Translations under genes and position numbers: made by a program
Origin: Methanosarcina vacuolata Z-761
Lineage (GTDB): Archaea > Halobacteriota > Methanosarcinia > Methanosarcinales > Methanosarcinaceae
Direction: 5' to 3'
Length of the DNA: 64,000 nt
Assembly: GCF_000969905.1 (NCBI RefSeq)
Contig: NZ_CP009520.1
Location: 1,798,001-1,862,000, forward strand
Shown here: piece after piece, positions 4,227 through 63,587 of the stretch
Layout: every line of letters begins with the position of its first letter
Numbering within the stretch: the stretch's first letter is position 1
The notes under the pieces: generated by a model
What the model saw: only the letters and a program-made list of their open reading frames with translations
What the model was told of the DNA's origin: nothing
Database searches by the model: none

Positions 4227-4279
4227 TTACTCGTCTTAGCTAATTATTTATTTCAAGTTAGTCAAATATTTGAAATAAT

Positions 4280-4304: not shown

Positions 4305-4323
4305 ACATATGGGTTACTGAAAG

Positions 4324-4365
4324 TCACAATTGTACAAAAAATGGCTATTGAAAAAGCCATTTTTG
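4324..4365 (+). promoter_or_regulatory. Third operator-like half-palindrome and an adjoining 10-bp hairpin
   Basis: GTCACAATTGTAC at 4324-4336 matches the core of the palindrome at 3883-3900. It is followed by AAAAATGGCT (4338-4347) and AGCCATTTTT (4356-4365), a perfect 10-bp stem ending in T residues that could terminate upstream transcription. The site lies upstream of the winged-helix gene. Confidence 0.4.
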
Positions 4366-4507
4366 GATTATTGGGTAAACAAATATCCTTTTTGTATTCA
4401 TTTTGGAAATTTCGGCCAAAAGGTTTAAAAACAAAGAATCCTTCTATGGAAATGGTGATTCACTATGAGGGATCGTTTTTGTTGAAAATGAATCTATAAA
4501 CAACAAT

Positions 4508-4762: not shown

Positions 4763-5065
4763 ATTAAAAAATGCTTTTCTGTGTAACTGGATCAAACTTC
4801 ATTGTATATCCGAATATTTGATTTTTGAGGCATATAAACCTCAATTATTTTTTAGAGAACTACTGTTAATAACTAATTTTAAGAGTTAATCTCAAATCCA
4901 AATCTTCTCTCCTATATTTCATACTCTGACTAATTATTCAAAATTCAAGATAGTGAGAGTCTTTTTAATTTTTTCTGGTTTATCTCCAATTTCAAACATC
5001 AGTTAGATCATTATCAGTTTTGAATGATCTTGCTTTGTCTACAATGTCTCCTATCAAAGAAAATA

Positions 5066-5183
5066 GGCTCTTCGTCATCCCCTATGGATAAGATGATTTT
5101 CAATTCAAGGCTGTATTGTTTTTTGGCTGTATTGTTTTTCATGAGAATATTATGAGGATATCCACACAAAACAACGAAGAGCC
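5066..5183. mobile_element. Foldback MITE, copy A (118 bp)
   Basis: Perfect terminal inverted repeats GGCTCTTCGT...ACGAAGAGCC enclose a conserved interior (TGGATAAGATGATTTTCAA, and ATGAGGATATCCACACAAAA). Copies B, C and D are at 31.4, 47.6 and 61.0 kb. This copy is longer because of a small internal duplication (GCTGTATTGTTTTT twice). Confidence 0.75.
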
Positions 5184-5247
5184 TTTTAGTTTTTCACGAT
5201 TTAAAGTGGAAATCTAAAGAGACCAGAAAATAATAAAAAGTCTCTTC

Positions 5248-5313
5248 TTTCTAGCACTTCTCTATTACTGCCAATAATTGCTGGGCAGCCTGTTTAGCTT
5301 AGGGGTGGTCCAC
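5248..5313 (-). repeat. Degenerate coding remnant, copy 1 of 2
   Basis: This stretch aligns over about 65 bases with 14506-14570. On the minus strand both read as related peptides (here AKQAAQQLLAVIEKC; there PKQAVRKLLEVIKKF), so both are decayed pieces of one protein-coding mobile gene that I cannot name. Confidence 0.5.
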
Positions 5314-5963
5314 ATTCTTGTACCGTAGCTTAATGCTATAAGGTTAAACCAGTAAAGAAAAATTAGATCTCTATATTAGCAAAATAGGGTTAAAATAATA
5401 TTATTTGTTAAAAATATTATATAGAGTGAGAGCATAGTATAAATTGCGTTCTCATCTATTACAAGACCACATAGCAAGACCTATTCCACAAGAAATACTT
5501 CAACGCCTACTCCGAAAAATATAATATAAAAGTGAAGAGATAAGAAGCTCGCAACCCGTGAGTCCAATACCAAACCTCTTCCTGAACAAGACTTAATAAG
5601 TGCCGTTCGGAACTTCCAGAATTTCTCAGGTGGGAACGCATCTCTTTTCCTAAATAAAACGTTACAACTCAATATTATCCTAAAATATAGTTCTTTTACT
5701 TTTCGGATAGGTTCTAAGTCAATTCACATTCATTGCTCCCCTTTCACAGGCAAATATCAGGATTTCTCAAACCTCCCAACTCAAAACCCTCCTCCTCAAC
5801 AACGTTTATATGTAGTAAGGATTACAGTACACCTGATTTTTCCGAACGTTTTATATTACTCATTAGATTACTTAATATATCATGACATGTAGAAACATGG
5901 CATTCATGTATTAAAATTTACAACCTGATAATGGTTTCATAAATAAAAAAGAAGGTTCTGTTA

Positions 5964-7265
5964 ATGAAATACTGGCAGCCGAAATACGAAACAATGAATC
6001 CCGAAGAATTGAAGAAATTACAGCTAAAACGCCTTCAACACAGCGTAAAGCTGGTCTATGACAATGTTCCTTTTTACAGGCAAAATTACAAAGCAGCCGG
6101 AGTCACTCCATATGACATCAAGACCCTCGATGATGTCCGTAAATTGCCTTTCACACGGAAAACCGACCTTCGGGACAACTATCCTTTCGGGCTTTTCGCT
6201 GCCAAAAAAGAAGATATAGTACGTATCCATGCCTCGTCCGGAACCAGCGGGAAACCGACAGTTGTCGGGTACACGGCAAAGGATATTGAAACCTGGTCTG
6301 ACCTGGTCGCCCGTGACCTCACGATGATTGGGCTTTCAAAAAGCGACACTATTCAGAACTCAATGAATTACGGGCTCTTTACCGGAGGCATAGGTTTCCA
6401 CTACGGTGTAGAAAGAATGGGCGCAATGGTCGTGCCGGCTGCAACCGGAAACACCGCCCGGCAGCTTGAAATGATGATCGACTTCGGCGTAACTGCAATC
6501 CACTGTACCCCTTCTTATGCCTTTTACCTTGCCGAAACCGCTGAAGAAATGGACCTTATAGACAAACTCTCCTTAAAAGCCGCTATATTCGGAGGGGAAC
6601 CCTGGTCCGAAAACACGCGGAAGCAGCTCGAAAAGCGGCTCAACCTTAAAGCCTATGACTGTTACGGCCTGTCCGAGATGTTCGGTCCAGGAATCGGTTT
6701 TGAGTGTCAGGAGCAGGACGGCCTGCATATCTGGAGCGATAATTTCCTTGTAGAAGTCCTTGATGAAAACGGAGAACAGGTCTCAGAAGGTGAAAAAGGT
6801 GAACTTGTCCTCACTTCCATCAACAAGGAAGGCTTCTGCAACGTCCGATACCGCACAGGCGACATGACAAGGCTTCTTGAATCAGAATGTGAGTGCGGCC
6901 GGACAACCACAAGAATTTCCCGCCTCATGGGCAGAGCCGACGACATGCTGATCGTAAGAGGAATCAACGTTTTCCCCTCCCAGATCCAGGACGTGATCTC
7001 TCGCATCCCGCAGGTAGGCGAACACTTCCAGCTCATCCTTGACCGTAATAAACACATGCTAGACGAACTTACAATCGAGGTCGAACTCGAAGATAATGCC
7101 TTTACCGGCGATCTCAAAGACCTTAAAGCCGTCCAGAATTATGTCCAGCACGAACTCAAAGCTGTCCTGAATATCCGCACAAATGTCGAGCTCCTTGAGA
7201 AAGGTAGCATCGAAAGAACCGCAGGAAAGGCAAAGAGAATCATCGACAGGCGGCCGCAGCTCTAA
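5964..7265 (+). CDS. Phenylacetate-CoA ligase (PaaK)-family AMP-forming ligase
   Basis: 433 aa, the usual length for PaaK. The phosphate-binding motif SSGTSGKPTVVGYT is at about residues 91-104, the adenylate motif YGLSEMFGPG at about 234 and YRTGDMTRLL at about 297. A small C-terminal domain (DDMLIVRGINVFPSQI) bears the hinge. Such enzymes activate an aryl-acetate with ATP and load it on CoA. In methanogens the family also includes coenzyme F390 synthetase, which adenylylates F420, so the substrate is uncertain. It is monocistronic, with a strong terminator 30 bases after the stop codon. Confidence 0.85.
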   Translation: MKYWQPKYETMNPEELKKLQLKRLQHSVKLVYDNVPFYRQNYKAAGVTPYDIKTLDDVRKLPFTRKTDLRDNYPFGLFAAKKEDIVRIHASSGTSGKPTVVGYTAKDIETWSDLVARDLTMIGLSKSDTIQNSMNYGLFTGGIGFHYGVERMGAMVVPAATGNTARQLEMMIDFGVTAIHCTPSYAFYLAETAEEMDLIDKLSLKAAIFGGEPWSENTRKQLEKRLNLKAYDCYGLSEMFGPGIGFECQEQDGLHIWSDNFLVEVLDENGEQVSEGEKGELVLTSINKEGFCNVRYRTGDMTRLLESECECGRTTTRISRLMGRADDMLIVRGINVFPSQIQDVISRIPQVGEHFQLILDRNKHMLDELTIEVELEDNAFTGDLKDLKAVQNYVQHELKAVLNIRTNVELLEKGSIERTAGKAKRIIDRRPQL

Positions 7266-7295
7266 CCGGAAGGGCAGCCTCAATTAACAATAAAT

Positions 7296-7328
7296 CAGGG
7301 AAAAATTATTCCCTGGTCTTTTTTTTAA
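7296..7328 (+). terminator. Intrinsic-type terminator after the PaaK-family gene
   Basis: CAGGGAA (7296-7302) and TTCCCTG (7309-7315) form a 7-bp stem with a 6-base loop. A T-rich run follows at 7317-7326. Confidence 0.7.
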
Positions 7329-7610
7329 CCTTTTTTAAGACCTGTTTTTTAGCAGTCCTTTTTAGATTACTCCAGTTTTTATTATCCAGCTCTCAGAGCA
7401 GAGAAAATAGCGTTTCAGAACCTTCAGAACTCCGGACAACCCTACGCTCGGTAAAATAGAGTGATTTTTGCGTAAAATCTGAAAATAAGCTGAAATTTTT
7501 TGATTTTGTTTTAATGAAGCCTACAATAAGCCAAAATTGTAAAATAATCTGTTTTGGCGATCTGAAGCAATAAAAAAGTATTATAAAATACAGCTCTAGC
7601 TTGTAAATAC

Positions 7611-7685
7611 AAAAAATGAAGAATACGAAAAATGAAGAATACGAAAAATGAAGAATACGAAAAATGAAGAATACGAAAAATGAAG
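7611..7685. repeat. Minisatellite, 16-bp unit (GAAGAATACGAAAAAT), about 4.5 copies
   Basis: Near-identical head-to-tail units between two convergent genes. The minus-strand ORF through them is a repeat artefact. Confidence 0.85.
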
Positions 7686-7753
7686 ATATGTGTTATAGGT
7701 AACACATATCAGCCAGAGTTTGAATTTGCCTTAATATCCCGGTTGCTTTCCCC

Positions 7754-9262
7754 TTAACTCTTTGGATCAAATTTTATAGCCCGGTCGTATACTATCTCTG
7801 AGTAGGCTGGCCCGGTTTTTGTTGTGTTCTCCATGTAGGCTCTCCAGGCAACAAAAAGCGGCTGATCAGGCTCTATACCGTGAACTCCCACGCCGGAGGG
7901 AACCTCATAGCAGTATTGATCATCTTCGCTGCAGTTCCTGGCGAGCTTGTAGACATACAGGTATTTCGCATTTGGATTGTCAGGGAGGTATTCCTCGGCA
8001 GATCCATTGAAATCTGCGTCTGTAATTGCTCTAACACCATTCCACACATCTGCTCCGTATATTGCGAAGTTCGAGTACGTCGCCTTTCCTGTGGCTACAT
8101 GGTTAACCCCATAGACAATTATGAATTCATTGGAATCGTTGCCCAGGGTAATTGCTGGTTCTCGCAAGAAAGGATAATACAGCGAGGTATTAACGAAAGG
8201 AGGTGTAGGCGAAGAGATAGTCTGGTTTGCTGTCCATAAATAGCACGCATCGTTGTTAGGACCGACACCGTTAATTCCTCTCTGGATAGCATCACTCCCT
8301 ACAGGAACTGCCTGACTGGTCGGAAGTTCTGTGGCACTCGACTCATTATATTTGTTAAGAATTGCAATCCTTAGCTCTTCGAGATCATCCATAAGCTCAA
8401 ACTCTGTTTGCCCGGTTCCGCGGACCCTCAGTTCCGGATAATCATACGGGTCCAGCTCCGTAGTGTTGTTGGGAGTAATCCTGAAAACAGTTGCAGGTGT
8501 ATTATTTATGTAATCATCACCAGCCTGTGTGTCATTGAATAAAGCTGGGCGGACAAACGCGGCAAACGTATCGGAATCATTCTCCAGTCCCATTTTTAAT
8601 ATGGTTGATGGCAACACCTGGGTGTTAATTATATCGTCTGAGTATCCCGCAGATTGGGCAGCAGCCCGGATGCGTTGGTCAATGCCTCTGTCGGCCGTAA
8701 TTATTATTACCGTGGTTTGATTGAAAGGATTTCCAGACGACCCGTTTGGAGTCCCTTCGGTTTTAATAACCAGGTCGTTCACCGTATCTGCTATGTTGGA
8801 AAAGAGCCATCTCCTTTCATTACCAATCGTCCTGTGCATTATGTAATGATCGTAGCTGAAGTACCTGCATTCCGGAGGTGTTCTTCCCACGAAAACAACA
8901 GCTTCATCAGGACCAAGGTTCCAGAATGGAGTTGTATTTCCGCTCATCCCAAGCGTACTGGTTAATTTAGAAATCCGTTCATCTACTCCCTGACCAGTTG
9001 CTGCTGGAACAAAATATGCAACATATTTTGTGGTGGGATTGTTTCCATATGCAGAAGGTAATATTCCTTTCTCTAACATCCCTATTAAATCAAAGTAACC
9101 CAGTTCACCTTCCTGTACGGTGAACCCCTCCTGTTCTAAAGCCTGTCGAAAAGCCTCTGCGTCATACGTTTCCATATTTGTTTCTACATTCTCTGCGAGG
9201 GCAGTTCCTGTTAATGATGTGAATAAAACGCCAATTATTATAACCATTATATAATTTTTCAT
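7754..9262 (-). CDS. Large exported protein of unknown function
   Basis: 502 aa with an N-terminal signal peptide (MKNYIMVIIIGVLFTSLTG, cleavage near TALAEN). The mature part is rich in N-x-T/S sequons (GNTTPF, NPFNQTT, NNTTEL, ENTTKT), as expected of a protein outside the membrane. Segments such as FNQTTVIIITADRGIDQRI and FIIVYGVNHVATGKA suggest an alpha/beta fold, but I recognise no family or catalytic motif. There is no transmembrane anchor at the C-terminus. It is monocistronic, with a long AT-rich upstream region. Confidence 0.6.
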   Translation of the reverse strand: MKNYIMVIIIGVLFTSLTGTALAENVETNMETYDAEAFRQALEQEGFTVQEGELGYFDLIGMLEKGILPSAYGNNPTTKYVAYFVPAATGQGVDERISKLTSTLGMSGNTTPFWNLGPDEAVVFVGRTPPECRYFSYDHYIMHRTIGNERRWLFSNIADTVNDLVIKTEGTPNGSSGNPFNQTTVIIITADRGIDQRIRAAAQSAGYSDDIINTQVLPSTILKMGLENDSDTFAAFVRPALFNDTQAGDDYINNTPATVFRITPNNTTELDPYDYPELRVRGTGQTEFELMDDLEELRIAILNKYNESSATELPTSQAVPVGSDAIQRGINGVGPNNDACYLWTANQTISSPTPPFVNTSLYYPFLREPAITLGNDSNEFIIVYGVNHVATGKATYSNFAIYGADVWNGVRAITDADFNGSAEEYLPDNPNAKYLYVYKLARNCSEDDQYCYEVPSGVGVHGIEPDQPLFVAWRAYMENTTKTGPAYSEIVYDRAIKFDPKS

Positions 9263-9450
9263 ATATAACCCCCAAGTTAATTTATTATTTAATATATTAG
9301 AAATCTTGTCAGGACATTGACTAAATTTTGACAGTCAATCAGTTAACATTTAGTATCATTCCTTTCTCCAACACCCGGTTCGGACTTATGTTTACTTTGT
9401 AACAATAATTTCATAAGAATATCCAACAAATCTAACAAAACTTTAAAGCC

Positions 9451-9541
9451 CATTTTTCATTTTATACTCAATTTTCATTTTAACCCAATTTTCATTTTAA
9501 CCCAATTTTCATTTTATACCCATTTTTCATTTTATACCCAA
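9451..9541. repeat. Minisatellite, about 18-bp unit (CAATTTTCATTTTAACC), 5 copies
   Basis: Imperfect tandem copies of an 'ATTTTCATTTTAWACCCA'-type unit in the divergent spacer upstream of the STAND gene. Confidence 0.8.
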
Positions 9542-9761
9542 ATAACCGGTTGTAAATACTGCTTTCTAATATCCCGGACACTCAACGCTCGACGCAGGAG
9601 AGCGGCCTTTTCCATGAAGTCTGCAAAAAAGGTGAAGTTTTAGAATTTTATCAAACGGATCCCTAAAAAAGTTAAAATCTATATCATTTTTATTCTAACA
9701 GTTCTAAATAACAAAATTTATTTTACATGCCTCCAATATCAAAAAAGAATTGGAGGAGTTT

Positions 9762-12671
9762 ATGGATCCAGCCGCTCTCGCCCAGCTCGCTCAGCAAGCA
9801 ACAAATATTCTCATTCCTGCCTTGTCTGCCCTGTGCATTGCAGGAAAACCCGCAGTTGACAAAGGCAAAGAAGTTCTTGTGGATTTGATTTATGAAAAAG
9901 CCTTTGAAAAACTCGGTTCTGAAAGTGGAAAAAGAGCACAGGCTCTGCTGGATAAAATAAGCCCTATAATGAGTTCATCCCTCGAAAAAGCACTTACAAA
10001 AATTCTCAGAAACTCCCAGGATCCAAAAGCAAATGAAGAGCTTCAGGAAGAAATCCTTAAGCTGCTGGTGGAAAATCCAGACCTTGCCAGGGAAATTGAA
10101 CCTATTGTGATAAATTTTAATGTTGAAAACATTGACCAGCTTGCATTAGGAAACTACAATAATTTCTTCAATTTTAAAACGCCTTCTGGAGACGAACTAA
10201 TCAAAATCATTGAGTATCTGGATCAGAAAAGGAAAGAAGCCGCAAATCAGGAAATACTGAACCGTTACAACCCTTCAACCCTTCCATATTATCCCGAAAA
10301 ACTAAAGCTATTTGTTACCGAAAACCGTTCAGAAGAGTTAAGAAAAGCACTTACATATCTCGAAAATCACCGAATTTTACTTATCAGCGGCGTTGGTGGA
10401 GTTGGGAAATCCACCCTTGCAAGGGCTCTTGTAGACCTCAGACCTGTAAACGTACCTGAACCTTTCTGGTTTGACTTTAATCAAAATCAGAGCGCAAAAC
10501 TGGGAGATATCCTTGAAAAACTTGCCTCCTATCTGAAAGCACCAGAAATCGCATCTTTTAAAGACGAAAGGAGAGAGCCCGGAAAATTTGACATTGATAA
10601 ACTCACAGGTGAATTTCAAAGAAGAAGTGAAGTCTGGCTTATTTTTGATGACCTGAGCACTATTCTTGAAGACCAACGTTTTGCAGACAAAGGAATCGAA
10701 CTTCTATTTTCTTCCCTGCGACACAACACCCACAATGCAAAAGTTATCGTAACAAGCAGAACTCTTCCTATCTTTGAAAACGGGGAAAAACTGATTGATG
10801 TGGTAGAAAATGAGGATAAACAGGACCTCAAAGGTTTGAATAAGGATTTTGCAGTTGACTACCTTATTAGTAATGGACTTGACGAAGTGGAACCTGAAAA
10901 GCTGGAAAAACTGGCTATAGGCGTGGATGGTCATCCCCTTGCCCTGAAGTTACTCGTAGAGCTGGTAACAGAATTCGGTGTGAAGGATATGCTTGAAGAC
11001 CTGAGTATGTATCAAAAAGACAAAGAGGATACAATCTTAAAAGCCAGAAAGTTATTCGACAAAATGGCAGGAGACGAAAAAGAACTTCTTGAACGCTTTT
11101 CTGTTTATCGTGAGCCTGTGAGTATGAAAGGGCTTAGGGAAATGTTTACGGAAAATACTCCAATAAACGCTATTAAGAGACTCCGCGACAAGTCCCTTCT
11201 CGAAATCGACCATAAAGAAAACTATTGGCTCCATCCCTTAGTCCAAGAATTCTTGTATCAGGATCTGATTAACAAAAATGAAGTCCACCTAATTGCTTAC
11301 AATTACTATAAATCTCTAAAACTCCCCGAAAACCCAACCAAAAAAGAAGAGCTTCAACCAGCAATTGAAGCTCATTACCATGCATGTATGGCTGGAAAGT
11401 ATGATTTGGCAGCATCTCTCATATGGGAATATAATCTTGTCGATCTTCTGGATCTCTGGGGAAATCAGAGAACCCTAATTGAAATCTATGAAAAATTGTT
11501 GCCTAAGGATCATTTTGTGGATGAACCAATTCTTAAGGACAAAAAGGTTCATGAAAATATTCTTGGAAATTTGGCGTTAGCATACCGTTATCTAGGCGAG
11601 CTAAAAAAAGCAATTGAATATTCTGAGCAGGCATTGAAAATTTCAAGAGAAACAAATGATAGACATAACGAAGGAGCTTGGCTTGGATATATGGGGTTAG
11701 CATACATGGATCTGGGCGAACCAAGAAAAGCAATCGAATATTACAAAGATGCATTGGAAATCTCAAGAAAAATGGGTGATAAACGCAGAGAAAGTGGTCA
11801 TCTTGAAGATCTCGGGTTAGCTTATAGTCATCTGAGCGAGCCTAAAAAAGCAATTGAATATTCTGAGCAGGCATTGAAAATTTCAAGAAAAATGAATGAT
11901 AAACGCAGAGAAGGAAATTGTCTTGGAAATTTGGGGGTTGAATATAGTCACCTAGGCGAGACGAGAAAAGCAATTGAATATAACAAGCAAGCACTAAAAA
12001 TTGCAAGAGAGATCGGCTATAGACGCGGAGAAGGAAATCATCTTAGAGATTTAGGATTAAAATATAGTCACCTAGGCGAGACGAAAAAAGCAGTTGAATA
12101 TAGCGAGCAGGCACTAAAAATTGCAAAAAAGATAGGTAATAGACGTGGAGAAGGAAATTGTCTTGGAAATCTGGGGAGCATATACAATGATCTGGGCGAA
12201 TCTAGAAAAGCGATTAAATATTGCCAGCAAGCAATGATAATTTCAAAAGAAATGGGCTATAGACGTGTAGAAGGAAATCATCTAGGAAATCTGGGATTAG
12301 CATACATGGATCTGGGCGAACCAAGAAAAGCAATTGAATATTATGAACAAGCACTAAAAATTTCAAGAGAGATTGGCGACAGGCGCGGAGAAGGAAATCA
12401 CCTTGGAAATATGGGGTTAGCATACAGTCATCTGGGCGAACCAAGAAAAGCAATTGAGTTTTTGAAGCAATCCCTTGCTATAGGAAAAACGATTGAAGAC
12501 CCGAGGATAATTAGCTTTTGTGAGAAGAAATTGAAAGAACTTGATGGGATTGAAGACAATGAAAACTCAAACTATTATCCAACCTCTAATAATTCTCCAG
12601 ATTCAAGATTTTCTCCGGCTTCAAAAAATATACTTCAGACTATTATCAGCAAGCTGAAGTCCAAAAAGTAA
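9762..12671 (+). CDS. STAND/NB-ARC ATPase with eight TPRs (NLR-like)
   Basis: 969 aa from the ATG at 9762. The frame is open from a TTG at 9750, but the ribosome-binding site GGAGG (9752-9756) fits the ATG. Residues 1-115 form a helical domain starting with a hydrophobic segment. Residues 117-140 carry a short N/F-rich stretch with LALGNYNNF, resembling a RHIM-type amyloid core. The NB-ARC module follows: Walker A GVGGVGKST at about 210, Walker B VWLIFDD at about 290, sensor VIVTSRT at about 328, GHPLAL at about 389 and a winged-helix domain (DKSLLEID ... LHPLVQEFL). Residues about 598-920 hold eight 40-residue TPRs (LGNLGLAYxxLGEPRKAIEY type). Domain order matches NLR-like signalling and defence proteins: TPRs sense, ATPase oligomerises, N-terminus signals. 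No separate effector gene is adjacent. Confidence 0.85.
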   Translation: MDPAALAQLAQQATNILIPALSALCIAGKPAVDKGKEVLVDLIYEKAFEKLGSESGKRAQALLDKISPIMSSSLEKALTKILRNSQDPKANEELQEEILKLLVENPDLAREIEPIVINFNVENIDQLALGNYNNFFNFKTPSGDELIKIIEYLDQKRKEAANQEILNRYNPSTLPYYPEKLKLFVTENRSEELRKALTYLENHRILLISGVGGVGKSTLARALVDLRPVNVPEPFWFDFNQNQSAKLGDILEKLASYLKAPEIASFKDERREPGKFDIDKLTGEFQRRSEVWLIFDDLSTILEDQRFADKGIELLFSSLRHNTHNAKVIVTSRTLPIFENGEKLIDVVENEDKQDLKGLNKDFAVDYLISNGLDEVEPEKLEKLAIGVDGHPLALKLLVELVTEFGVKDMLEDLSMYQKDKEDTILKARKLFDKMAGDEKELLERFSVYREPVSMKGLREMFTENTPINAIKRLRDKSLLEIDHKENYWLHPLVQEFLYQDLINKNEVHLIAYNYYKSLKLPENPTKKEELQPAIEAHYHACMAGKYDLAASLIWEYNLVDLLDLWGNQRTLIEIYEKLLPKDHFVDEPILKDKKVHENILGNLALAYRYLGELKKAIEYSEQALKISRETNDRHNEGAWLGYMGLAYMDLGEPRKAIEYYKDALEISRKMGDKRRESGHLEDLGLAYSHLSEPKKAIEYSEQALKISRKMNDKRREGNCLGNLGVEYSHLGETRKAIEYNKQALKIAREIGYRRGEGNHLRDLGLKYSHLGETKKAVEYSEQALKIAKKIGNRRGEGNCLGNLGSIYNDLGESRKAIKYCQQAMIISKEMGYRRVEGNHLGNLGLAYMDLGEPRKAIEYYEQALKISREIGDRRGEGNHLGNMGLAYSHLGEPRKAIEFLKQSLAIGKTIEDPRIISFCEKKLKELDGIEDNENSNYYPTSNNSPDSRFSPASKNILQTIISKLKSKK
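11560..12510 (+). repeat. 120-bp intragenic tandem repeats encoding the TPRs
   Basis: Eight direct copies of a 120-bp unit, in frame, with high DNA identity between units (for example around 11701, 12301 and 12421). The similarity implies recent expansion or homogenisation by recombination. Confidence 0.85.
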
Positions 12672-12705
12672 TCTTTCAAAAAAAACAGATTTTACTCTTT
12701 AAATA

Positions 12706-12822
12706 GACTCATTTCTTATGGACTCATTTCTTATAAACTCATTTCTTATAAACTCATTTCTTATAAACTCATTTCTTATGGACTCATTTCTTATAGACTC
12801 ATTTCTTATAGACTCATTTATT
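12706..12822. repeat. Minisatellite, 15-bp unit (ACTCATTTCTTATAA), 8 copies
   Basis: Tandem copies differing mainly at the last bases (TTATAA, TTATGG, TTATAG), directly after the STAND gene. Confidence 0.9.
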
Positions 12823-12984
12823 ACAAATTTTTTGTAATCTCTTCTCATGAGCTTGATACAAATATCCCAAAATCAGCATTAAAAGATCCTAACTATTTCT
12901 TTTGCCTTTAAGGAATTTATACATCCTGGTGACTCTAAAAGTCGTAGCAAAAACTTTAAAAACAAGGCAGGAAGATCTAAAAGT

Positions 12985-30012: not shown

Positions 30013-31086
30013 TTAGTCCAAAAGAGATTTCACCCACTCTGGCTTCTTTGAGAGTGCACATCCCCCATTTGATTCCATGAGCTTATCACGATTCTCTCTC
30101 AGTGCTTTGAACAATCTGGAATTGAGAGCCTCTTTCAGCGGCATGTCCAGAATGCTGCATTCAGAGTACGGAGCGAAAGGGCAAGGCTCGACATCTCCAG
30201 AGGCGCTTATGTGGAGGAAGCCTCTTCCTGAAGAAAGGCAGCCTCCAAAGGCCTTTTCATCACCTGGGAACCCGATGTAAACGCCCGGCTGGCTTGCTCT
30301 GAAGGCAGCCATTTTAGTCAGGATCTCGTCTCGTTGCGAATCTGTAACCACCCAGTCCTCCGTACCTTTCATGACAGGGTTATACTCGACATAGATAAAC
30401 GCTTTGCAGCCGTACTCCCGCATGAGCTTAACAAAGCTCTTGTCCGTGACGGTCTCGTAATTTGACTGGGTGACAGTGAGTGATACGCCAAAGAAGATGT
30501 CTCTTTCGTGAAGTTTCGCCATGTCTTTCATCAACCGGCCGTAAACACCGTCACCCCTGTGCAGGTCCGTCATGTTCTCTTGGCCTTCCATGCTGAGTAT
30601 CGGGATAACATGCTTTTGTTCCTTGAATTGTTCAAGCACAGCGTCATCGATGAGGGTACCATTCGTGAATAATGTGAAGATCATATCCGGAAAGTTTTTA
30701 GTAACATCGAATATGTCTGGCCTGGTCAGTGGCTCTCCGCCTACAATTAACACAATGGAAACGCCCATCTCACTCGCCTGCTGTAGTACGCTCGTCAGAC
30801 TGGCTGTGCTCATTTCAGGTTTTTGTTCGCGGGGGACGAGCCGTGAGTAGCAGCCCACACAGTGCAAGTTACATTTGTTGGTAACGCTGAGTATCATCAC
30901 TGGAGGCACGTGGAGCCCCTTATCCTCGTTTTTCTGCCTTATTGAGGCCGCCTTTTTCTGTGCCATCGTGGCCCTGACGAAAAAGGCAGCCATGGCAGGT
31001 TTCTTCAAGGAGACATTCAGCGCATCGCTGAATATATTTTTGATGAGATCGTTGACCATGCGATTGAGATCGTTATTGTTTTCCAT
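30013..31086 (-). CDS. Radical SAM protein of unknown function
   Basis: 357 aa. The cluster motif CNLHCVGC (C-x3-C-x2-C) is at about residues 71-78, followed by the SAM-binding GGEPLTRPDI. Further on, FGGCLSSGRGFLHISASGDV and EPCPFAPYSECS give extra cysteines of a SPASM/twitch-like auxiliary region. The N-terminal 60 residues are helical (MVNDLIKNIFSDALNVSLKK). Such enzymes modify peptides, cofactors or lipids; no precursor peptide or partner gene is nearby, so the substrate is unknown. Confidence 0.85.
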   Translation of the reverse strand: MENNNDLNRMVNDLIKNIFSDALNVSLKKPAMAAFFVRATMAQKKAASIRQKNEDKGLHVPPVMILSVTNKCNLHCVGCYSRLVPREQKPEMSTASLTSVLQQASEMGVSIVLIVGGEPLTRPDIFDVTKNFPDMIFTLFTNGTLIDDAVLEQFKEQKHVIPILSMEGQENMTDLHRGDGVYGRLMKDMAKLHERDIFFGVSLTVTQSNYETVTDKSFVKLMREYGCKAFIYVEYNPVMKGTEDWVVTDSQRDEILTKMAAFRASQPGVYIGFPGDEKAFGGCLSSGRGFLHISASGDVEPCPFAPYSECSILDMPLKEALNSRLFKALRENRDKLMESNGGCALSKKPEWVKSLLD

Positions 31087-53601: not shown

Positions 53602-56600
53602 TCATTTAACAAAATAAATCATTTCATTTGGCGTGAGAGTTAATTCCTCATTCTCTATTCCTGCCTTTACAAGCTTTTCGATTCGTTCCTTTGCGTTTTT
53701 GCGTGTGGTTTTTATTCCGAGCACTCTCGAAGTCTGGACAATAAGATCTTCAAGAGGAGTTGAATACTGGTTGTACAGGACAAAACGGATAGCTTCTTTT
53801 ATTTCCTCGTCACAGATCCACTCGATTTTTGCGGATTCATCTCCCTCACGCCTGCGCAGGAGACATGCAGGTTTCGAAACTGGCCAGTAGAACTCGCCTT
53901 TGGCCTTGATTTCTCCGGAACTTTCGGCAAGATCTGCAACATTATTTATTCGCTGCTTGATTTTCCCGAGCATTCGGGAAATTCCTGTATGCGATTTTAT
54001 TCGCTGCTGCAGGAGTTGTGCGTGAATGGGCCCTTCACACGCTACAATTCTTAGAATCGCCTCCTCAAGCTGCTTATCCGAAACCTCCGAAAGATCGCCG
54101 GTTTGCGGAAGGCCTGAGGAAAGGCAGACCTGGTAAAGGGGTACGACATCTTCGAGTGAACTGGATTTTCCGGATAGATTTTCAGGCTCTTTTTTTGAAT
54201 TACCCAGTTCAGGTTTTTTTCCTGGAATTTCCCGGAGTTCGACAGTTCTCGATCCGGTATTACCGGCCCTGAATTTTAAGGAGCTTCCAGTATCGGGTTT
54301 CTCAAAAAACGTTCCTGTTTTTTCAGCCGGGGCTGAAGAGAAGGGTTCCTTTGGGTTTCTGGTTTCTGCCTTATACGTATGTTTTAGAGCAGGCTCACTT
54401 AACCGGGTTTCAGTTCTTCTTTTTATATCATGCTCAATTACAGGCTCTTCTTCGTGCTTAACTTGAGTTTCTGAGTCCCATGTCCATTCATAACTGTCAT
54501 CTCCAGCTTCATAATTCTCTTCCTCTAAGTCTGGTTCGGGTTCGAAATAGCCTTCTGAGCCGTAAATATACGCAAACTCATTAATTCGCTTGCGTTTCTT
54601 TTTTTCAGGGCTTGCGCTGAAGTCAATCTCAGGGTAAGCCTGGTAAAAACTCACTTTCTCAGGCTCTGGCTCAGGTATCAAATCGGCTTTGTTTCCCTTG
54701 GAGTGAGGATCTACACTGAATTTAAGGAGTTTTGATTTTTTTGACCTTCCTACAGGCTTCTTACGGGAGTTTTCATCGGCTACCAGAGCCATCGACCTGG
54801 CTCTTACATCTATTTCGGGCAAGAAATCTGTATCTGATGGGGCTGTAAGTCCTTCTTCCAGTTTAAAAAACGAGTCTGAATAGGGTTTTTCAGCTTCAGC
54901 TCCAAAGGAGGGCTCCAGAAGAAGTTTTGCCTCAAAAGTTTCCGAAAGGCAGGCTCTATTATAAGATCGACTTTCAAGTTCGTCCTCATTCCCATCTTCA
55001 CTCTCCACACTCACTGCAGGCGAGACCGGAACCCGGGATAAACCCGGATTTGCAGGAGAACTGGAATACCTTCCTGCAGGACTTCGATTCACAGGCCCAG
55101 GCCGGGCAGTCGGCTCATTAACCCTCGAAACCTCAGGTCCGATTTCGGATATTGCCTGTATTTTTGCCTGTTTTATAGCCCCATTCACAGCTTCAAGCAG
55201 TTTTTCCCTGCTCTCTTTCGGATGTAAGTACCAGTCCGTTGACCAGACCCGGTAGATCCTCCAGCCCAGCCCTTCAAGCACCTGCTGGCGCAGACGGTCG
55301 CGGTCCCGTGCAACATGCAAGGAATAATAGCTTTTTCCATCATACTCGATCCCAAGCACATACCGCCCTGGATGGGCGGGGTCAGGGACTGCAAGGTCAA
55401 GCCTGTATCCTGCACAACCGATTTGCCTGTGGATTTCGCAGCCGTTTTCTGCCAGGAAATTGTAAACTGCCTCTTCAAAAGGCAAATCGAGTTTTTCCCT
55501 GCGGTATGCAGGTAAGGGAAGCTTGCCGCTCTCTGCAAATTCAAGGAAGACTTTCAGGGCCCGAAGCCCGAAAGGTGAGTTTTCATCCAGCTTCAGGTCC
55601 CTTGATGTGAAATTTGCAAAAACAACGCATTTTTCCCTGGCCCGCGTAATAAGCACATTCAAGCGCCTTTCCCCTCCCTCACGATTAAGCGGGCCAAAGT
55701 TAAGGGAAAGCTTTCTGTTGCTGTCAAAGCCAAAACCCACGCTCAGCAGTATAACGTCCCTTTCATCGCCCTGGATAGTTTCAAGATTTTTAACAAAGAA
55801 ATGCTCACCTTTTCCATTTCCAGAGTTAAGGTCAAGTCCGGGATTTGTTTTAAGTAAAGCCTCGATTTCTTCCTGGATAGCTTCCTGCTGTTTTATATTG
55901 AAAGTCCCGACTCCCAGGCTTTTATCAGGGTACCTGCTGAAGTGCTCGAAAACAGATCTTGCAACGGCTCTTGCTTCTATCCGATTGGCTCCGCTTTTAC
56001 CCCTTTCATAAATTGAGTCTGGAAGATGCACAAACTTCAGCCCAAGTTTTTCGTCTTTTTGCATGGGGGAGGGATAAACATAGAGACGGTTATCGTAAAA
56101 CTCCTGATTTGAAATTGCAATGAGGGACTCGTGCCTGCTCCTGTAGTGCCAGCGCAGGGTCTTTACCGGAAAACTGCGTTTGCACACATTCAGGATACTT
56201 TCCATATCTACGGCTGTAATGCAGTCATCAGGCTCGCTTTCCGGAAAATCGAGCACAGTATCAAAAAAGTCAGTCGGCGGAAGTTGTTTTGAATCTCCCA
56301 TTACTACGACCTGCTTTCCGCGCAGGAGAGCTCCAACTGCATCTTCGGGTTTGACCTGGCTGGCTTCGTCAAAGATAATCACATCAAAACGCGTGCTTCT
56401 GGGATCAAGGTACTGGGCGATGGAAAGCGGGCTCATAAGGAAACAGGGCTTGATTTTTTGGATCAGGCCGCCTGCCTTTTTCATAAGAGTGCGGATAGGC
56501 ATATGCCCTCTTTTCCTGTTGAACTCATTGAGCAGAATGCCCGCCTCTGAAGATCTTGAGGCTCCTGAAACTAATTTTGGGGTTTCCTCATAAGCCGAGC

Positions 56601-59265
56601 ATACAATTCTTTTTCGGTTTTCCATAAGGACCTTTTTGTCAAGTTTCCTGAACTTGCCAAGTTTACCTTCGTGGAGTTCCCGGATAAAAGTCGAAAGTAT
56701 AGGCCTTTTCCTGAAAGTGCGATTCAGGAGGATTTCGGCGTAGTTTCCTTCAAAAGCAGGAATTGCGTCACACACTGCGAGTTTTCCGGATTCAAGGTCT
56801 TCCATTATCGGGGCTGCCTTTGTTTCAAGACAGACCTGCCTGTAACAAAGATACTGGCTCCAGAGCACCAGGGACGAAGTCTCGTTTTTCCAGCAGGTTA
56901 CGAGGGTTTTTAATGAACTTAGCTTTGCGGCTTCCAGGCCTTCTGGGCACATTTTCCCAAAATCTGCGCCTATACGAATCCCAACTCTCTTAAATGACTC
57001 CAGAAACTCCTGCGTTGCGGCCAGTACATGGCTGGACGCAGATTCGATTGCTTCGCTGTCAATTCCAAGTCCTATAAGCCTTAAACTCCTGTCTGTGAAA
57101 GTGCCTTCTTTCAGATACTGCTGGAAAAGAATTATCCATTGGCTGTATTCCTCAAGCTGTTCAGGATCGCTTTCAAAGCCTTTCCAGTAATCTCCAAAGT
57201 ATTTTTCTCCTTCTGCACCCGAATTTTCAAGTTCCAGCCTGAGGGCTTTGTATTCGGAAATGCCGGTTAGGTCAAGCAGGATTTTACTGTTTCTGAAAGG
57301 CACTCGTGAGAGATAGCAAGCTGAAATTTCTTTTTTGAGCCTCCTGTATTTCGGGCTTAAAAACTTGAGGAGACTGCCGGAAAGCTCCTCGAATTCAGAG
57401 GTATCAAGGCTAAAAATCTCAGGGCGAAAAGTTTTGTCCGCAAAAGTTTTGAGCTCAAGGTATTTCCTGAATTTTGAAACCAGAGTTTCTGCCTCTGTTA
57501 TTGAGTTTTCGGATTCATATCCCAAATTCTGAAGCATTTTTTCAGGGATGGTTTTTGAGTTTCCAAGGAATTTTGCGGCATTGATTACGGTTGCAATTCC
57601 CTCGAGAGTGTCAGGTTTTAAGGTTGCAGAAAGGTCATTAAGGGTTTTTATGGCGGTTTCAAGGGTCTCAAAAGCCTCAGCGCATTCGTCTGTAAAGGCT
57701 CCGATTTCTCCCAGATCCGAAGGCAGTACAAGCCCTGGATCGCAGCCGTACCAGGGATTTTTCCAGACCGGCCCGAGAAAAGGAAGTACCTGACTCAGTT
57801 TTTCTATAACAGCTTCTGCATCGGCCCAGGCTTCAGGATCCCAGGTTTCGGGTTCTTGAAACTTATATAAGGGCATTTTCAGGCCTTTTGATTCAAAATA
57901 AGCCCTTGTTTTTTCCCGAATGCCATAGAGGGTATAGAGGCTTGGGTAGATTTTTCCCGCAGGTTCCCCAAGTGATAGGGCATACTGGTTGAGTTCATGT
58001 TTTAGCTTTTCGAGCTCGTTTATATCTCTGTCGGGGCGTATGGGGGAAGGAGCTTCGCGGTTCAGGGTCTTTTCCAGCTCTTCGAGCACGGCTTTTTTGC
58101 GGGTCTGGTTGCTGTGGATCTCCAGGCAGAGTTCTCCAAGGCCGGCAGAGTCCAGCCTGCTTTTTACAACCTGAAGGGCAGCTATTTTTTCACTCAAGAA
58201 AAGTACGCTTTTTCCCTGGGCTATAAGTTCTGCAATCGTATTTGCAATCGTCTGAGACTTGCCGGTCCCGGGAGGTCCCTCAACAACAAGGTTTCTTCCG
58301 GCTTTCACATCTTCAATGACTGCAATCTGGGAAGAATCTGCGTCCATTATCTGATAAGTGTCCTTTGCCGGAAGTTTAAGGTCAACCTCTTCTTCCAGAA
58401 AACCGGAAACCTCACATTCTGGGTCTTCAGGGTTAAAGACCTCCTGGATCAATGGGTGGTCAGCAGGAGACATGTCTTCAGGCCAGGTTGCAGGGTCAAG
58501 GTCCTTATACATGACAAATTTCTTGAAGTTAAAAAGGTCAAGGCAGATTTCAGGCAGAAGTTTCCAGTCTCTATTTTCATGAATTTCTCTGGATACAGCC
58601 CTGAAATATTTCTCAATCCCCGAAGCTTCCTCAGGCATTTCAAATTCAGGAATCGTGATTCCGAATTCTTTCATTTTTGCCTGTAGGGTAATTGAAGTGA
58701 AGATTTCGTCTCCTGTCCACTGGATGCTGAAAATTCGGCCTTTGCTTATGCGTTTGAGTTCAACGGGAATAAGAAGTAGAGGAGCTTTCGGATTTTTTAT
58801 GGCCGACCGGCTTTCACTCCACTGCAGAAAGCCCAGTGCAAGGTAGAGAACAGGATATCCCTGTTCTTCAAATATGGAGTTTGCCTGGTTAAAGACATAA
58901 AAAAGCTTTTTATCTAGGGTTTCGCTGTCATCAGGGGTTTCCAGAAAAGTTTCGGAGCGAGAAGTATGGGTTTTATCTTCGGATACCAGAATATTTCCTA
59001 TTGTTTTCAAAAGCCGTTTTTCCTTTTCAGAAGCCTCGTATTTCTCCCCATTTTCACTTTTCCTGCCTTTTCTTAACTGAGCTGTTGCTCTGAACCTCAT
59101 CGATTTTTCCTGGAGGACAAAGAGTTCGTAAATTTCCTCCGGGCTCCTACCTGTAATCGAGATGGTCCTTTTCTGAGAAGGGCGGTAATTGAGAAGATTA
59201 TTTCGAAGGGACAGATCAAGCAAATTCTGCCTCAGGGCTTCCAATTCCTTAACTACGTCTACCAT
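53602..59265 (-). CDS. hhe: DUF4011-SF1 helicase-Vsr-like nuclease-DUF3320 protein (hhe-like)
   Basis: 1887 aa. The N-terminus LEALRQNLLDLSLRNNLLNY is DUF4011. The helicase core has Walker A GPPGTGKSQT (about residue 327), motif Ia FLSEKIAAL, Walker B IIFDEASQV (about 963), GDSKQLPPTDF, LRWHYRSRHE and the late motifs TIQGDERDVILLS and LNVLITRAREKC. Residues about 1255-1365 are a Vsr/DUF559-type nuclease (YRLDLAVPDP, LGIEYDGKSYY, RVWSTDWYLHP). A charged, low-complexity linker (about 1375-1720) leads to a C-terminal DUF3320 region (IVACEGPIHAQLLQQRIKSH). The DUF4011-helicase-Vsr architecture was reported as a single-gene anti-phage system (hhe). The role here is inferred. Confidence 0.88.
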   Translation of the reverse strand: MVDVVKELEALRQNLLDLSLRNNLLNYRPSQKRTISITGRSPEEIYELFVLQEKSMRFRATAQLRKGRKSENGEKYEASEKEKRLLKTIGNILVSEDKTHTSRSETFLETPDDSETLDKKLFYVFNQANSIFEEQGYPVLYLALGFLQWSESRSAIKNPKAPLLLIPVELKRISKGRIFSIQWTGDEIFTSITLQAKMKEFGITIPEFEMPEEASGIEKYFRAVSREIHENRDWKLLPEICLDLFNFKKFVMYKDLDPATWPEDMSPADHPLIQEVFNPEDPECEVSGFLEEEVDLKLPAKDTYQIMDADSSQIAVIEDVKAGRNLVVEGPPGTGKSQTIANTIAELIAQGKSVLFLSEKIAALQVVKSRLDSAGLGELCLEIHSNQTRKKAVLEELEKTLNREAPSPIRPDRDINELEKLKHELNQYALSLGEPAGKIYPSLYTLYGIREKTRAYFESKGLKMPLYKFQEPETWDPEAWADAEAVIEKLSQVLPFLGPVWKNPWYGCDPGLVLPSDLGEIGAFTDECAEAFETLETAIKTLNDLSATLKPDTLEGIATVINAAKFLGNSKTIPEKMLQNLGYESENSITEAETLVSKFRKYLELKTFADKTFRPEIFSLDTSEFEELSGSLLKFLSPKYRRLKKEISACYLSRVPFRNSKILLDLTGISEYKALRLELENSGAEGEKYFGDYWKGFESDPEQLEEYSQWIILFQQYLKEGTFTDRSLRLIGLGIDSEAIESASSHVLAATQEFLESFKRVGIRIGADFGKMCPEGLEAAKLSSLKTLVTCWKNETSSLVLWSQYLCYRQVCLETKAAPIMEDLESGKLAVCDAIPAFEGNYAEILLNRTFRKRPILSTFIRELHEGKLGKFRKLDKKVLMENRKRIVCSAYEETPKLVSGASRSSEAGILLNEFNRKRGHMPIRTLMKKAGGLIQKIKPCFLMSPLSIAQYLDPRSTRFDVIIFDEASQVKPEDAVGALLRGKQVVVMGDSKQLPPTDFFDTVLDFPESEPDDCITAVDMESILNVCKRSFPVKTLRWHYRSRHESLIAISNQEFYDNRLYVYPSPMQKDEKLGLKFVHLPDSIYERGKSGANRIEARAVARSVFEHFSRYPDKSLGVGTFNIKQQEAIQEEIEALLKTNPGLDLNSGNGKGEHFFVKNLETIQGDERDVILLSVGFGFDSNRKLSLNFGPLNREGGERRLNVLITRAREKCVVFANFTSRDLKLDENSPFGLRALKVFLEFAESGKLPLPAYRREKLDLPFEEAVYNFLAENGCEIHRQIGCAGYRLDLAVPDPAHPGRYVLGIEYDGKSYYSLHVARDRDRLRQQVLEGLGWRIYRVWSTDWYLHPKESREKLLEAVNGAIKQAKIQAISEIGPEVSRVNEPTARPGPVNRSPAGRYSSSPANPGLSRVPVSPAVSVESEDGNEDELESRSYNRACLSETFEAKLLLEPSFGAEAEKPYSDSFFKLEEGLTAPSDTDFLPEIDVRARSMALVADENSRKKPVGRSKKSKLLKFSVDPHSKGNKADLIPEPEPEKVSFYQAYPEIDFSASPEKKKRKRINEFAYIYGSEGYFEPEPDLEEENYEAGDDSYEWTWDSETQVKHEEEPVIEHDIKRRTETRLSEPALKHTYKAETRNPKEPFSSAPAEKTGTFFEKPDTGSSLKFRAGNTGSRTVELREIPGKKPELGNSKKEPENLSGKSSSLEDVVPLYQVCLSSGLPQTGDLSEVSDKQLEEAILRIVACEGPIHAQLLQQRIKSHTGISRMLGKIKQRINNVADLAESSGEIKAKGEFYWPVSKPACLLRRREGDESAKIEWICDEEIKEAIRFVLYNQYSTPLEDLIVQTSRVLGIKTTRKNAKERIEKLVKAGIENEELTLTPNEMIYFVK

Positions 59266-59608: not shown

Positions 59609-60535
59609 CTAAGGGACTGCAGGCAGTTTTTCCTTGAAAACAGGTTCTTCTTCGGTTTTGCTTTCCTCCTCCAGACTTGCCAGGAAAGAACTGGAAAGGA
59701 TAAGGGCACATCCAAATAGGGTTTCAGCGGATATGGGGTCTTTTAAGAGCAGGTAAGCGAAAAAAATCGCACTTACAGGTTCAATCAGGGAAAGTATGCT
59801 TGCATTCTGGGCTTTGACATGTAAAAGCCCTGTAAAGTAAAGAATCGAACCTACTGAAGTGATTGTTATCCCTAGAAAGAGGAGAACAGGTAGGTTTTCA
59901 ACAAGAGCTATTACTGATGCCTGTTTTACAAAAGGAAGCAATAATACAAGCATTACGATGGTTGAGATAAAAAGTTGTTCTAAACCTGAATACTCATTCC
60001 TGAGATCTCGGGAGGTAATAGTAACGCAGGCGTAAAAAAAGCCTGAAAAAAGTCCCATAAGCACTCCAAAAAGATATGCTGGCTCAATTCCCGACCCAGA
60101 AACAAGGTTTTCAGGGCCTATTACCATTACTACACCCGTAAGAGAAAGAATAAGGGCAACAAGGCTCTTTTTGTTATGTTTCTCCTTCAGGAAAAGAGGG
60201 GCGAGCAGCAAAACGTAAAACGGAGCCGTATAAAGTAGAAGTACGGATATTGATACATTAGTAAAGCTCACAGCCATGTAATAAGAAACCATTGCACCTG
60301 CATTGAAAGCTCCAAGCAGTATCAAGTTTTTTCTTTTACCTCGGAGCCTGATTCCTGACAGTTTTCCAGTAACTGCCAGATAACCTGTAAGTGCGAGAAG
60401 CCCGAAAAGAAGCTGGTAAAACACAACAGCTCCTGCGGCCATATTCTTTACATACATGAAAAAAATTCCTGAAAATCCGTAGATGACAGATGCGGCAATT
60501 ACCTGGATATTTGCTTTTATGTGCTGCGGCTCCAT
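59609..60535 (-). CDS. EamA-family (DMT) transporter
   Basis: 308 aa with ten membrane segments in two EamA halves. Landmarks: VSYYMAVSFTNVSISVLLLY, FYVLLLAPLFLKEKHNKKSL, LSLIEPVSAIFFAYLLLKDP. Such proteins export or import metabolites (amino acids, nucleotide sugars, drugs); the substrate cannot be told. The C-terminus is acidic and cytoplasmic. It is convergent with nothing obvious and monocistronic. Confidence 0.85.
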   Translation of the reverse strand: MEPQHIKANIQVIAASVIYGFSGIFFMYVKNMAAGAVVFYQLLFGLLALTGYLAVTGKLSGIRLRGKRKNLILLGAFNAGAMVSYYMAVSFTNVSISVLLLYTAPFYVLLLAPLFLKEKHNKKSLVALILSLTGVVMVIGPENLVSGSGIEPAYLFGVLMGLFSGFFYACVTITSRDLRNEYSGLEQLFISTIVMLVLLLPFVKQASVIALVENLPVLLFLGITITSVGSILYFTGLLHVKAQNASILSLIEPVSAIFFAYLLLKDPISAETLFGCALILSSSFLASLEEESKTEEEPVFKEKLPAVP

Positions 60536-61122: not shown

Positions 61123-61908
61123 TTAGTTTCTTCTTGTAATCCCGGATGCAGTTGCTGAAGGGTCAGAGTTTCCGAGCCTGTTCTTTACTCCAATTAACCG
61201 CACAACTACCATACTGATCTCAAAAAAGAACGCCATGGGCACGGCAACCATCATCTGACTGAAGACATCTGCCCCAGGAGTAACTACGGCTGCAATAAAC
61301 ACGACAAGGACATAAATATGCTTGCGGTACGTCACAAGAGTACTGTATTTTACAAATCCATTTCGGGTAAGGAAAGTAAGTACTATAGGGAGTTCAAAGA
61401 CCAGACCAAAGATTGCTGTAGTCGTTGCTATAAATGAGATAAACTTGAAAACCGAATAAGTCGCAGTCACCCCTGAGTCTGCTGCGTCAATGTAGAGGAA
61501 CTTAAGGAAGAGAGGCAGCATGAGGAAATAAGAATATGAAGCTCCAATGACGAACATGACAATGACCGCTAGACTCAGGAAAACAAACTGGCCTTTTCCA
61601 ATAGATATCGGAACTTTAATTGAGTACCGCTTCGAGATTGCCCTATAAGCATAGAATGCAATTAGAGGCAGGGTGATGAGAATTCCTATTATAATAGAGA
61701 GCTTTAGCTCCAGCATCATTACCTCAAGGGGAGATACATACACCAGCTTTGCGCCCTCTGGGAGAAGATCAACCTTCATTCTCTCAATTAGAGGGCCTGT
61801 AAACTGGAAAGAGAGAATAATGCCTGTGATAAGGACCCCAGCAATCACAAGTAACTTATTTCGCAGGGTCAGCAGAATTGCACTGAGATTTTCAATCGCT
61901 TCAGACAT
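61123..61908 (-). CDS. tatC: Tat translocase subunit TatC (first paralogue)
   Basis: 261 aa with six membrane segments. Landmarks: ENLSAILLTLRNKLLVIAG, LVYVSPLEVMMLELKLSIII, GLVFELPIVLTFLTRNGFV, YVLVVFIAAVVTPGADVFSQ. TatC recognises twin-arginine signal peptides and, with TatA, exports folded proteins. It is divergent from the second tatC. The C-terminus is Ser/Arg-rich. Membrane spacing and the conserved Glu in FELP fit the family. Confidence 0.88.
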   Translation of the reverse strand: MSEAIENLSAILLTLRNKLLVIAGVLITGIILSFQFTGPLIERMKVDLLPEGAKLVYVSPLEVMMLELKLSIIIGILITLPLIAFYAYRAISKRYSIKVPISIGKGQFVFLSLAVIVMFVIGASYSYFLMLPLFLKFLYIDAADSGVTATYSVFKFISFIATTTAIFGLVFELPIVLTFLTRNGFVKYSTLVTYRKHIYVLVVFIAAVVTPGADVFSQMMVAVPMAFFFEISMVVVRLIGVKNRLGNSDPSATASGITRRN

Positions 61909-62804: not shown

Positions 62805-63587
62805 ATGAACTCACAGAACACAGGCAACAGACCAACAGCTTCTACCGAAAAAAACTCGGGGATGAACTCTTATCCTTCCGGTGTCCCGGGAGATAATGAG
62901 GAACCTCTCATGGTTCACCTGTTAGAGCTCAGAAACCGTCTAGCAATCGTTTTGATCTGGCTCTGTCTGGGAATACTTATTGCTTTCCCATTTTCAGCAA
63001 AAGGGATGCTGATTGTCTGGAAGGAATTTATAAATACTGACTTTTACATGACGGCTTACTCACCTCTTGAATGGACCTTTGCGCGCCTCAAGCTCTGCCT
63101 CGTTTTTGCTCTGGCCACTTCAATCCCTCTGCTCTTCTACGAGCTTTACAGGTTTGCAGGCAAAGGACTTTATCCACATGAGAAGCGCTTTTTCCTCAAG
63201 GTCATTCCTCTATCCTTCCTGCTTTTCATCTTTGGGACCTCTATAGGGTACTTTATCGTCCTGCCTGTCATGTTCAAATACATTCTATTTTACTCGGGAG
63301 ACATGGCTACAGCGCAGCTTTCCGTTCAGGATACTCTCTCAGCAGTAACTACAATTCTGTCAGGTTTCGGAATTGTATTCCAGCTTCCCTTGCTTGTGAT
63401 TTTTGCCGTGAAAATGGGGCTTATAGAATACGAGACTCTTAAAAAGCAAAGGATACTGGTCTACAGTGTGATTATGGCAATTTCACTTTTCCTTTCGCCT
63501 GATCCTACATTCATTGCCCAGATCCTTGTGGCGTTTTTATTGGGAATTCTCTTTGAGTTCAGCCTGCTACTTATCCGGCTATTTTGA
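62805..63587 (+). CDS. tatC: Tat translocase subunit TatC (second paralogue)
   Basis: 260 aa. A polar N-terminal extension (MNSQNTGNRPTASTEKNS) is followed by the canonical MVHLLELRNRLAIVLIWLCL, YSPLEWTFARLKLCLVFA, RFFLKVIPLSFLLFIFGTSI, GIVFQLPLLVIFAVKMGLI and FLSPDPTFIAQILVAFLLGI. Compared with the first paralogue it has Gln instead of Glu in F(E/Q)LP. tatA follows 130 bases later. Two TatC proteins of this sort, each with a different partner face, suggest heteromeric or substrate-specific translocons. Confidence 0.92.
   Translation: MNSQNTGNRPTASTEKNSGMNSYPSGVPGDNEEPLMVHLLELRNRLAIVLIWLCLGILIAFPFSAKGMLIVWKEFINTDFYMTAYSPLEWTFARLKLCLVFALATSIPLLFYELYRFAGKGLYPHEKRFFLKVIPLSFLLFIFGTSIGYFIVLPVMFKYILFYSGDMATAQLSVQDTLSAVTTILSGFGIVFQLPLLVIFAVKMGLIEYETLKKQRILVYSVIMAISLFLSPDPTFIAQILVAFLLGILFEFSLLLIRLF

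Follow-up and report, generated by a model that had tools for sequence, protein, structure and literature searches.

Genes that act against viruses are generally expected to be gained and lost. The closest described relatives of the protein considered here are large helicase-nucleases, one architecture of which was set out in a survey of the MTES_1575 family (Anantharaman et al. 2013, PMC3710099): an SF1 helicase, a Vsr-type REase and two wHTH domains overlapping DUF3320, with HEPN and transglutaminase domains in addition. Profile models cover two further groups, namely ProA (NCBIfam NF058533) together with PDC-S37 (PADLOC PDLC05009, a candidate system whose model has no curated cut-off), with the order DUF4011, SF1 helicase, MTES_1575 and DUF3320, and Hhe (NCBIfam NF042953, PADLOC PDLC02194), with a core of DUF4011, SF1 helicase and MTES_1575 REase. 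In the literature searched, no functional study of ProA, PDC-S37 or DUF3320 was found, DUF3320 being named only in the survey above. A large DUF4011 gene has also been described in Pseudomonas aeruginosa, where it is core in all of the species and borders the defence hotspot cDHS1 (PMC10250203).

Within a 64,000-nt stretch of Methanosarcina vacuolata Z-761 (contig NZ_CP009520.1, positions 1,798,001 to 1,862,000; the whole stretch is called the window), a single complete ORF of 1887 aa, with an ATG start and no internal stops, encodes a protein with the same domain order as ProA/PDC-S37 (Table 1). An earlier note on this DNA had claimed an intact gene with DUF4011, helicase, Vsr-type nuclease and DUF3320 domains. 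Indeed, Pfam searches recovered all four, the motifs it quoted were located (LGIEYDGKSYY at residues 1304–1314, RVWSTDWY at 1339–1346) and the catalytic residues are kept. Its description of the nuclease as “Vsr/DUF559-type” was right as to the Vsr fold: the domain matches the MTES_1575 REase model with 115 bits (Pfam cut-off 38.2), catalytic acids included, and is of this rather than of the DUF559 type, for which the score stayed below threshold (13.4 bits, cut-off 20.6). SF1 helicase, Vsr-type REase and two C-terminal winged helices are combined as in the MTES_1575 survey, but the window protein gave no Pfam match to HEPN or transglutaminase.

Table 1 Features of the helicase-nuclease gene and its flanks (window coordinates; residues are those of the 1887-aa protein)
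Feature	Coordinates	Strand	Description or evidence
Helicase-nuclease gene	53602..59265	(-)	DUF4011 - SF1 helicase - MTES_1575 REase - disordered linker - DUF3320 tandem winged helix
DUF4011, residues 14-198	58672..59226	(-)	Pfam PF13195, E 1.4e-39
Helicase first motor part, residues 295-450, Walker A GPPGTGKS	57916..58383	(-)	AAA_30/AAA_19/AAA_11 matches
Helical insertion, residues 451-870	56656..57915	(-)	All-helical in structure model; evolves faster than motor parts
Helicase second part, residues 871-1230 (DEAS, HYRSRH, TIQGDERD, RRLNVLITRAR)	55576..56655	(-)	AAA_11/AAA_12
Vsr-fold nuclease, MTES_1575 REase, residues 1263-1359	55189..55479	(-)	PF18741, E 1.4e-33
Disordered linker, residues 1376-1701	54163..55140	(-)	pLDDT < 50
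Conserved linker block, residues 1460-1577	54535..54888	(-)	hmmsearch and genome search
C-terminal tandem winged helices, residues 1729-1886	53608..54081	(-)	Overlap Pfam DUF3320 (1725-1770, E 1.3e-11); model pLDDT mostly > 90
DMT-family transporter, conserved 5′ neighbour	59609..60535	(-)	
tatC, conserved 5′ neighbour	61123..61908	(-)	
Second tatC, conserved 5′ neighbour	62805..63587	(+)	
Glycosyltransferase family 2 gene and membrane protein, variable 3′ flank in the window genome	50452..53426	(+)	No recognised defence gene

By its intact Walker A/B and arginine motifs, the motor is an SF1 (Upf1-like) helicase, and its only solved relatives by sequence are the helicases UPF1, SMUBP-2 and SEN1. 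The structure model of residues 1–1200 was weak (pTM 0.41), and a fold search with it returned no significant matches, Dna2 and Sen1 occurring among the weak ones. For the nuclease model, the best Foldseek matches included the catalytic domain of I-Bth0305I and NGO0050 (probability 1.00, with modest E-values of 0.0035–0.025). AlphaFold modelled the C-terminal pair of winged helices confidently, in agreement with their description in the MTES_1575 survey, and assigned low confidence to the linker before them, save for a weak helix near residues 1482–1501.

Among the PADLOC models, PDC-S37 fitted the window protein best (1766 bits; Hhe, 673). With the NCBIfam models, it scored 1320 bits for ProA, below the curated cut-off of 1500, and 952 bits for Hhe, below the curated cut-off of 2000. 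A short-linker Methanosarcina paralogue reached 1382 bits with the ProA model, and a Hymenobacter plasmid relative of the same four-part architecture passed the cut-off with 1564. A gene annotated hhe on the Klebsiella plasmid NZ_CP150006 scored 2736 (NCBIfam) and 4299 (PADLOC) with the Hhe models; its product is 38–45% identical to the window protein over parts and, unlike the latter, lacks DUF3320 at E <= 0.01. In the tree, Hhe fell far outside the clade of the window protein, at a place of poor support: long branches affect the positions of both Hhe and the plasmid relatives, so that conclusions are drawn from the nested Methanosarcina clades alone. The Hhe and ProA/PDC-S37 scores thus argue that the window protein is ProA/PDC-S37-like by sequence, under the curated ProA line, and Hhe membership was rejected on score, DUF3320 content and tree position. 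While the match to hhe put forward in the earlier note is thereby lost, the kinship with anti-phage helicase-nucleases, through a shared family, is retained.

To describe the distribution of the gene, we used one genome for each of 31 Methanosarcina species. Matches were found in 29 of these, and reading of the loci left a copy with the long linker in 28 (a count that includes G022, where the end of a contig leaves 77 aa of it, and the fragmented copies of G026 and G028); all four species of the sister genus (g5) carry the gene as well. The usual order is hydantoinase genes, pdaD (pyruvoyl-dependent arginine decarboxylase), a variable stretch, the helicase-nuclease gene, the DMT transporter, two divergent tatC genes, small ORFs and, judged from the sequence, a putative idi-like gene. 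This order recurred in nearly all Methanosarcina and in 4/4 g5 species, being only partly visible where contigs end early. In the window genome, the 5′ side is kept (transporter and both tatC) and the 3′ side holds the unrelated glycosyltransferase and membrane protein genes. No recognised defence system turned up near the gene when ten window genes were scanned with PADLOC and ten flanking genes of other species with Pfam. A defence island around the window copy was rejected accordingly, as was the earlier reading of an accessory defence gene: the distribution is not patchy, the locus is conserved, and none of the neighbours scanned is a recognised defence gene. By its description, the gene is comparable to the P. 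aeruginosa DUF4011 gene in being near-core, but no hotspot such as cDHS1 was found beside it.

The long-linker copy is absent from three species (G002, G003 and G021), which form three separate lineages in an rpoB tree. G003 has kept both tatC genes and lost the helicase-nuclease gene and the transporter at that site; G002 has a broken transporter, 12 kb away; and in G021, the interval from the transporter to the hydantoinase/pdaD genes lacks the gene, of which a remnant with stops lies ~20 kb off. A short-linker paralogue is present elsewhere in the G021 genome, and the G002 and G003 losses occurred without one. The gene was thus lost at least three times, which shows that it is dispensable; but for these losses, it would be the universal, syntenic Methanosarcina gene that the earlier note had named as the mark of a housekeeping function. 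Gene and rpoB-region trees of 24 species have 17 of 21 splits in common, and the conflicting splits of the gene tree are all weak (support at most 83).

The gene is split within the linker in G010 and G112. In G010, a rearrangement breakpoint inside the conserved linker block has produced two distant open frames (L052 C1:3958789-3963765 and L062 C1:2357388-2358206), with the C-terminal part 1.6 Mb off, next to the pdaD and hydantoinase genes; each half keeps one ancestral flank. In a sister-genus genome (G112; L115 6174-12169), the gene is read as two frames, of 1446 and 612 aa, that overlap, owing either to a frameshift or to misassembly of repetitive sequence.

Residue conservation was profiled across the family. 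The helicase motif residues were invariant in 60 relatives, Walker A K336 included, except for one E-to-D change at E1168 among the distant relatives. Conservation of the nuclease residues in close relatives, on which the earlier note had made its proposal depend, was nearly complete: E1264, D1290 and D1309 are kept in 25/25 genus copies and E1307 in 24/25. At the neighbouring variable positions, C1308Y occurs in the window genome alone and H1314Y in 12/25 genus copies. In G016 (L038), a draft assembly of 250 contigs, the copy is otherwise intact but has alanine at residue 1307 (GIACDG), as either a sequencing error or a loss of nuclease activity.

Whole-gene pairwise dN/dS values were 0.10–0.22, so that the gene is under ordinary purifying selection, as had been supposed; those of the neighbouring tatC and transporter genes were similar (mostly 0.10–0.27). 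By part, dN/dS was 0.04–0.11 for the second helicase part, 0.04–0.28 for the nuclease, 0.07–0.32 for the C-terminal part, 0.07–0.42 for the helical insertion and 0.23–0.51 for the linker. Median identity was 65% in the helical insertion as against 89% in the motor parts.

The linker (~330 aa) evolves fast, and acidic repeats were gained in some species. Measured from the nuclease motif RVWSTDW to the EGPIH motif of the DUF3320 region, the spacing is 291–537 aa in the fixed Methanosarcina copies, 414–432 aa in g5 and 278–370 aa in genera g6 and g8, compared with 91–100 aa in short-linker relatives, the arm having expanded in the fixed lineage. The unusual linker singled out in the earlier note is real and predicted to be disordered; “low-complexity” describes it incompletely, given the conserved block of ~118 aa inside it (...DFLPE...KKPVGRSKKSKLLKFSV...PEPEPEKVSFYQAYPEIDF...KKKRKRINEFAYIYGS...), which combines basic clusters with an aromatic motif (KSKLLKF, QAYPEIDF, NEFAYIYGS). 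When used as a profile, the block matched all Methanosarcina (g1) and g5 copies (hmmsearch, 1e-42 to 1e-61) and was not significant in other relatives; likewise, when the genomes of 112 family members were searched, it occurred in g1 and g5 only, with nothing elsewhere in the genomes or the family save a borderline match of 39 residues in G002 (E 0.0076). The linkers of g6 and g8 are long and charged yet unrelated in sequence, a profile search detecting no homology to the g1/g5 block; one or two origins of long linkers are thus both possible. In a g8 copy (G131, L127 2827-8331), the linker is a long charged repeat of the EREQK type. Compared with ProA/PDC-S37, then, the window gene differs in being chromosomally fixed and vertically inherited, in a nuclease-DUF3320 spacing 3–5 times longer and in its private block. 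Judged from its sequence, the arm is probably flexible with one docking-like block, which would sharpen the earlier suggestion that it regulates or tethers.

Outside the fixed locus, the family behaves differently. Relatives at E <= 1e-60 were found in 51 of 186 genomes, and those with a short linker are sparse across the order: 5/31 Methanosarcina species have one (in one species interrupted by stops, in another incomplete), and others occur in Poribacteria and an Omnitrophota MAG, with more distant ones on plasmids. Genus g6 has a relative in 6/6 species, at another locus. Short-linker relatives adjoin Wadjet jetA/jetC and a GajB/UvrD-like helicase (L125, G149) or a DUF4238 gene (L061, G006/G019); a relative in G128 (L123) lies beside EVE-AAA_5 and UvrD-PDDEXK genes, in a McrB-like/EVE context; and the neighbours of plasmid relatives include paired DUF262 genes (L144, L147), SIR2 (L145), cas1/cas2 (L148) and a DUF4297 anti-phage-associated protein (L150). 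These neighbours and the patchy spread argue that the family is mobile and defence-associated elsewhere and fixed in Methanosarcina. The L125 locus (65-12955) is a Methanosarcinaceae one in which the Wadjet genes, the GajB/UvrD-like helicase and the short-linker relative stand side by side; the G128 copy (genus g7, L123 7503-14099) is 2198 aa long, with an enlarged helical insertion.

Taken together, we favour the reading, at a probability of roughly 0.55 for the whole, that the window gene encodes a ProA/PDC-S37-type helicase-nuclease which, mobile and defence-associated elsewhere, became fixed before Methanosarcina and its sister genus split and then descended vertically at one chromosomal site as a DNA-surveillance enzyme. 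The combination of motor, nuclease and tandem winged helices suggests a protein that travels along nucleic acid and cleaves it. The Upf1-like motor, with DUF4011 and the helical insertion framing it, would load onto and travel along abnormal or foreign DNA (free ends, forks or single strands, whether the DNA is viral, plasmid-borne or damaged), and would deliver the Vsr-fold nuclease for cutting. The two winged helices may aid binding of duplex DNA or of a partner; the long disordered arm could let this head reach, or hold it back, and its basic/aromatic block might dock a lineage-particular partner or DNA. We infer DNA as the substrate and its cutting, as well as the role of the arm; an antiviral function is suggested by the family, and virus or plasmid DNA as the target by the family and the relatives' neighbours. 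Counting against this reading, a near-core, syntenic gene under ordinary selection also has the profile of a repair gene, both curated anti-phage cut-offs were missed, and no recognised defence gene was found among the scanned neighbours of the fixed copy. Fixation with repeated loss is compatible both with immunity at a price and with a non-essential repair role, between which the data do not separate.

On this surveillance reading, a methane-producing archaeon would carry an immune or DNA-surveillance enzyme permanently and in non-mobile form, and the gene is a candidate for such an enzyme that can be put to the test. One genus offers a natural comparison between a patchy short-linker form and a long-linker form fixed at a housekeeping locus, so that how mobile immunity turns permanent becomes directly testable in genetically tractable methanogens, with the arm's block as a defined protein segment that goes with the fixed form. 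Among these, M. acetivorans has a DUF4011 match; M. mazei Goe1 is lysed by the virus MetSV (PMC9694453), against which any protection may thus be lacking or defeated. A bolder and rather doubtful extension is that archaea took over a helicase-nuclease of mobile immunity for permanent genome surveillance, its block being a new docking module for a Methanosarcina-specific partner. Were this so, a replication clamp, single-strand binding protein or nucleoid protein, for example, would be candidate partners, and an accessory defence gene would have turned into built-in innate immunity.

Possible, if somewhat unlikely, is a housekeeping enzyme of DNA repair or of replication/transcription conflicts, a Dna2-, Sen1- or Upf1-like helicase with a nuclease, whose immune role is gone. 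Fixation, synteny and the lineage-specific arm would then mark recruitment to maintenance of the host chromosome. The near-core, rpoB-congruent distribution and a constraint like that of the neighbours fit this, as do the UPF1, SMUBP-2 and SEN1 kinship and the weak Dna2/Sen1 fold matches; at least three losses, two of them without a paralogue, and closest relatives that are mobile, several of them beside defence genes, speak against it. Abortive infection, in which a triggered immune protein would degrade host DNA rather than attack invader DNA directly, is improbable. Other nuclease-helicase systems, Hachiman among them, stay off until DNA damage is sensed, according to one report (PMC12278908); the long flexible arm could serve as an autoinhibitory tether, and repeated loss suits a costly gene, but a permanently carried suicide nuclease would make an expensive core gene. 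A conventional accessory anti-phage gene of the Hhe group in a defence island is very improbable: the shared DUF4011–helicase–MTES_1575 architecture and partial identity to Klebsiella Hhe are outweighed by the shortfall in bits, the missing DUF3320 of the Hhe examined, its distant tree position, the failure to find an island and the non-patchy distribution. Finally, a decaying relic in a debris-rich stretch, as the many short ORFs around the gene, the split G010 and G112 copies and the G021 remnant might suggest, is scarcely credible and is refuted for the window copy by dN/dS (about 0.2, mostly 0.04–0.1 in the helicase parts), that copy being complete with its catalytic residues.

Elsewhere in the window, the gene at 30013-31086 matched prokaryotic viperin models weakly (47 bits), probably as a general radical-SAM hit, and was not taken as defence. 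A 973-aa TPR-repeat protein (9750-12671) matched PADLOC TPR models.
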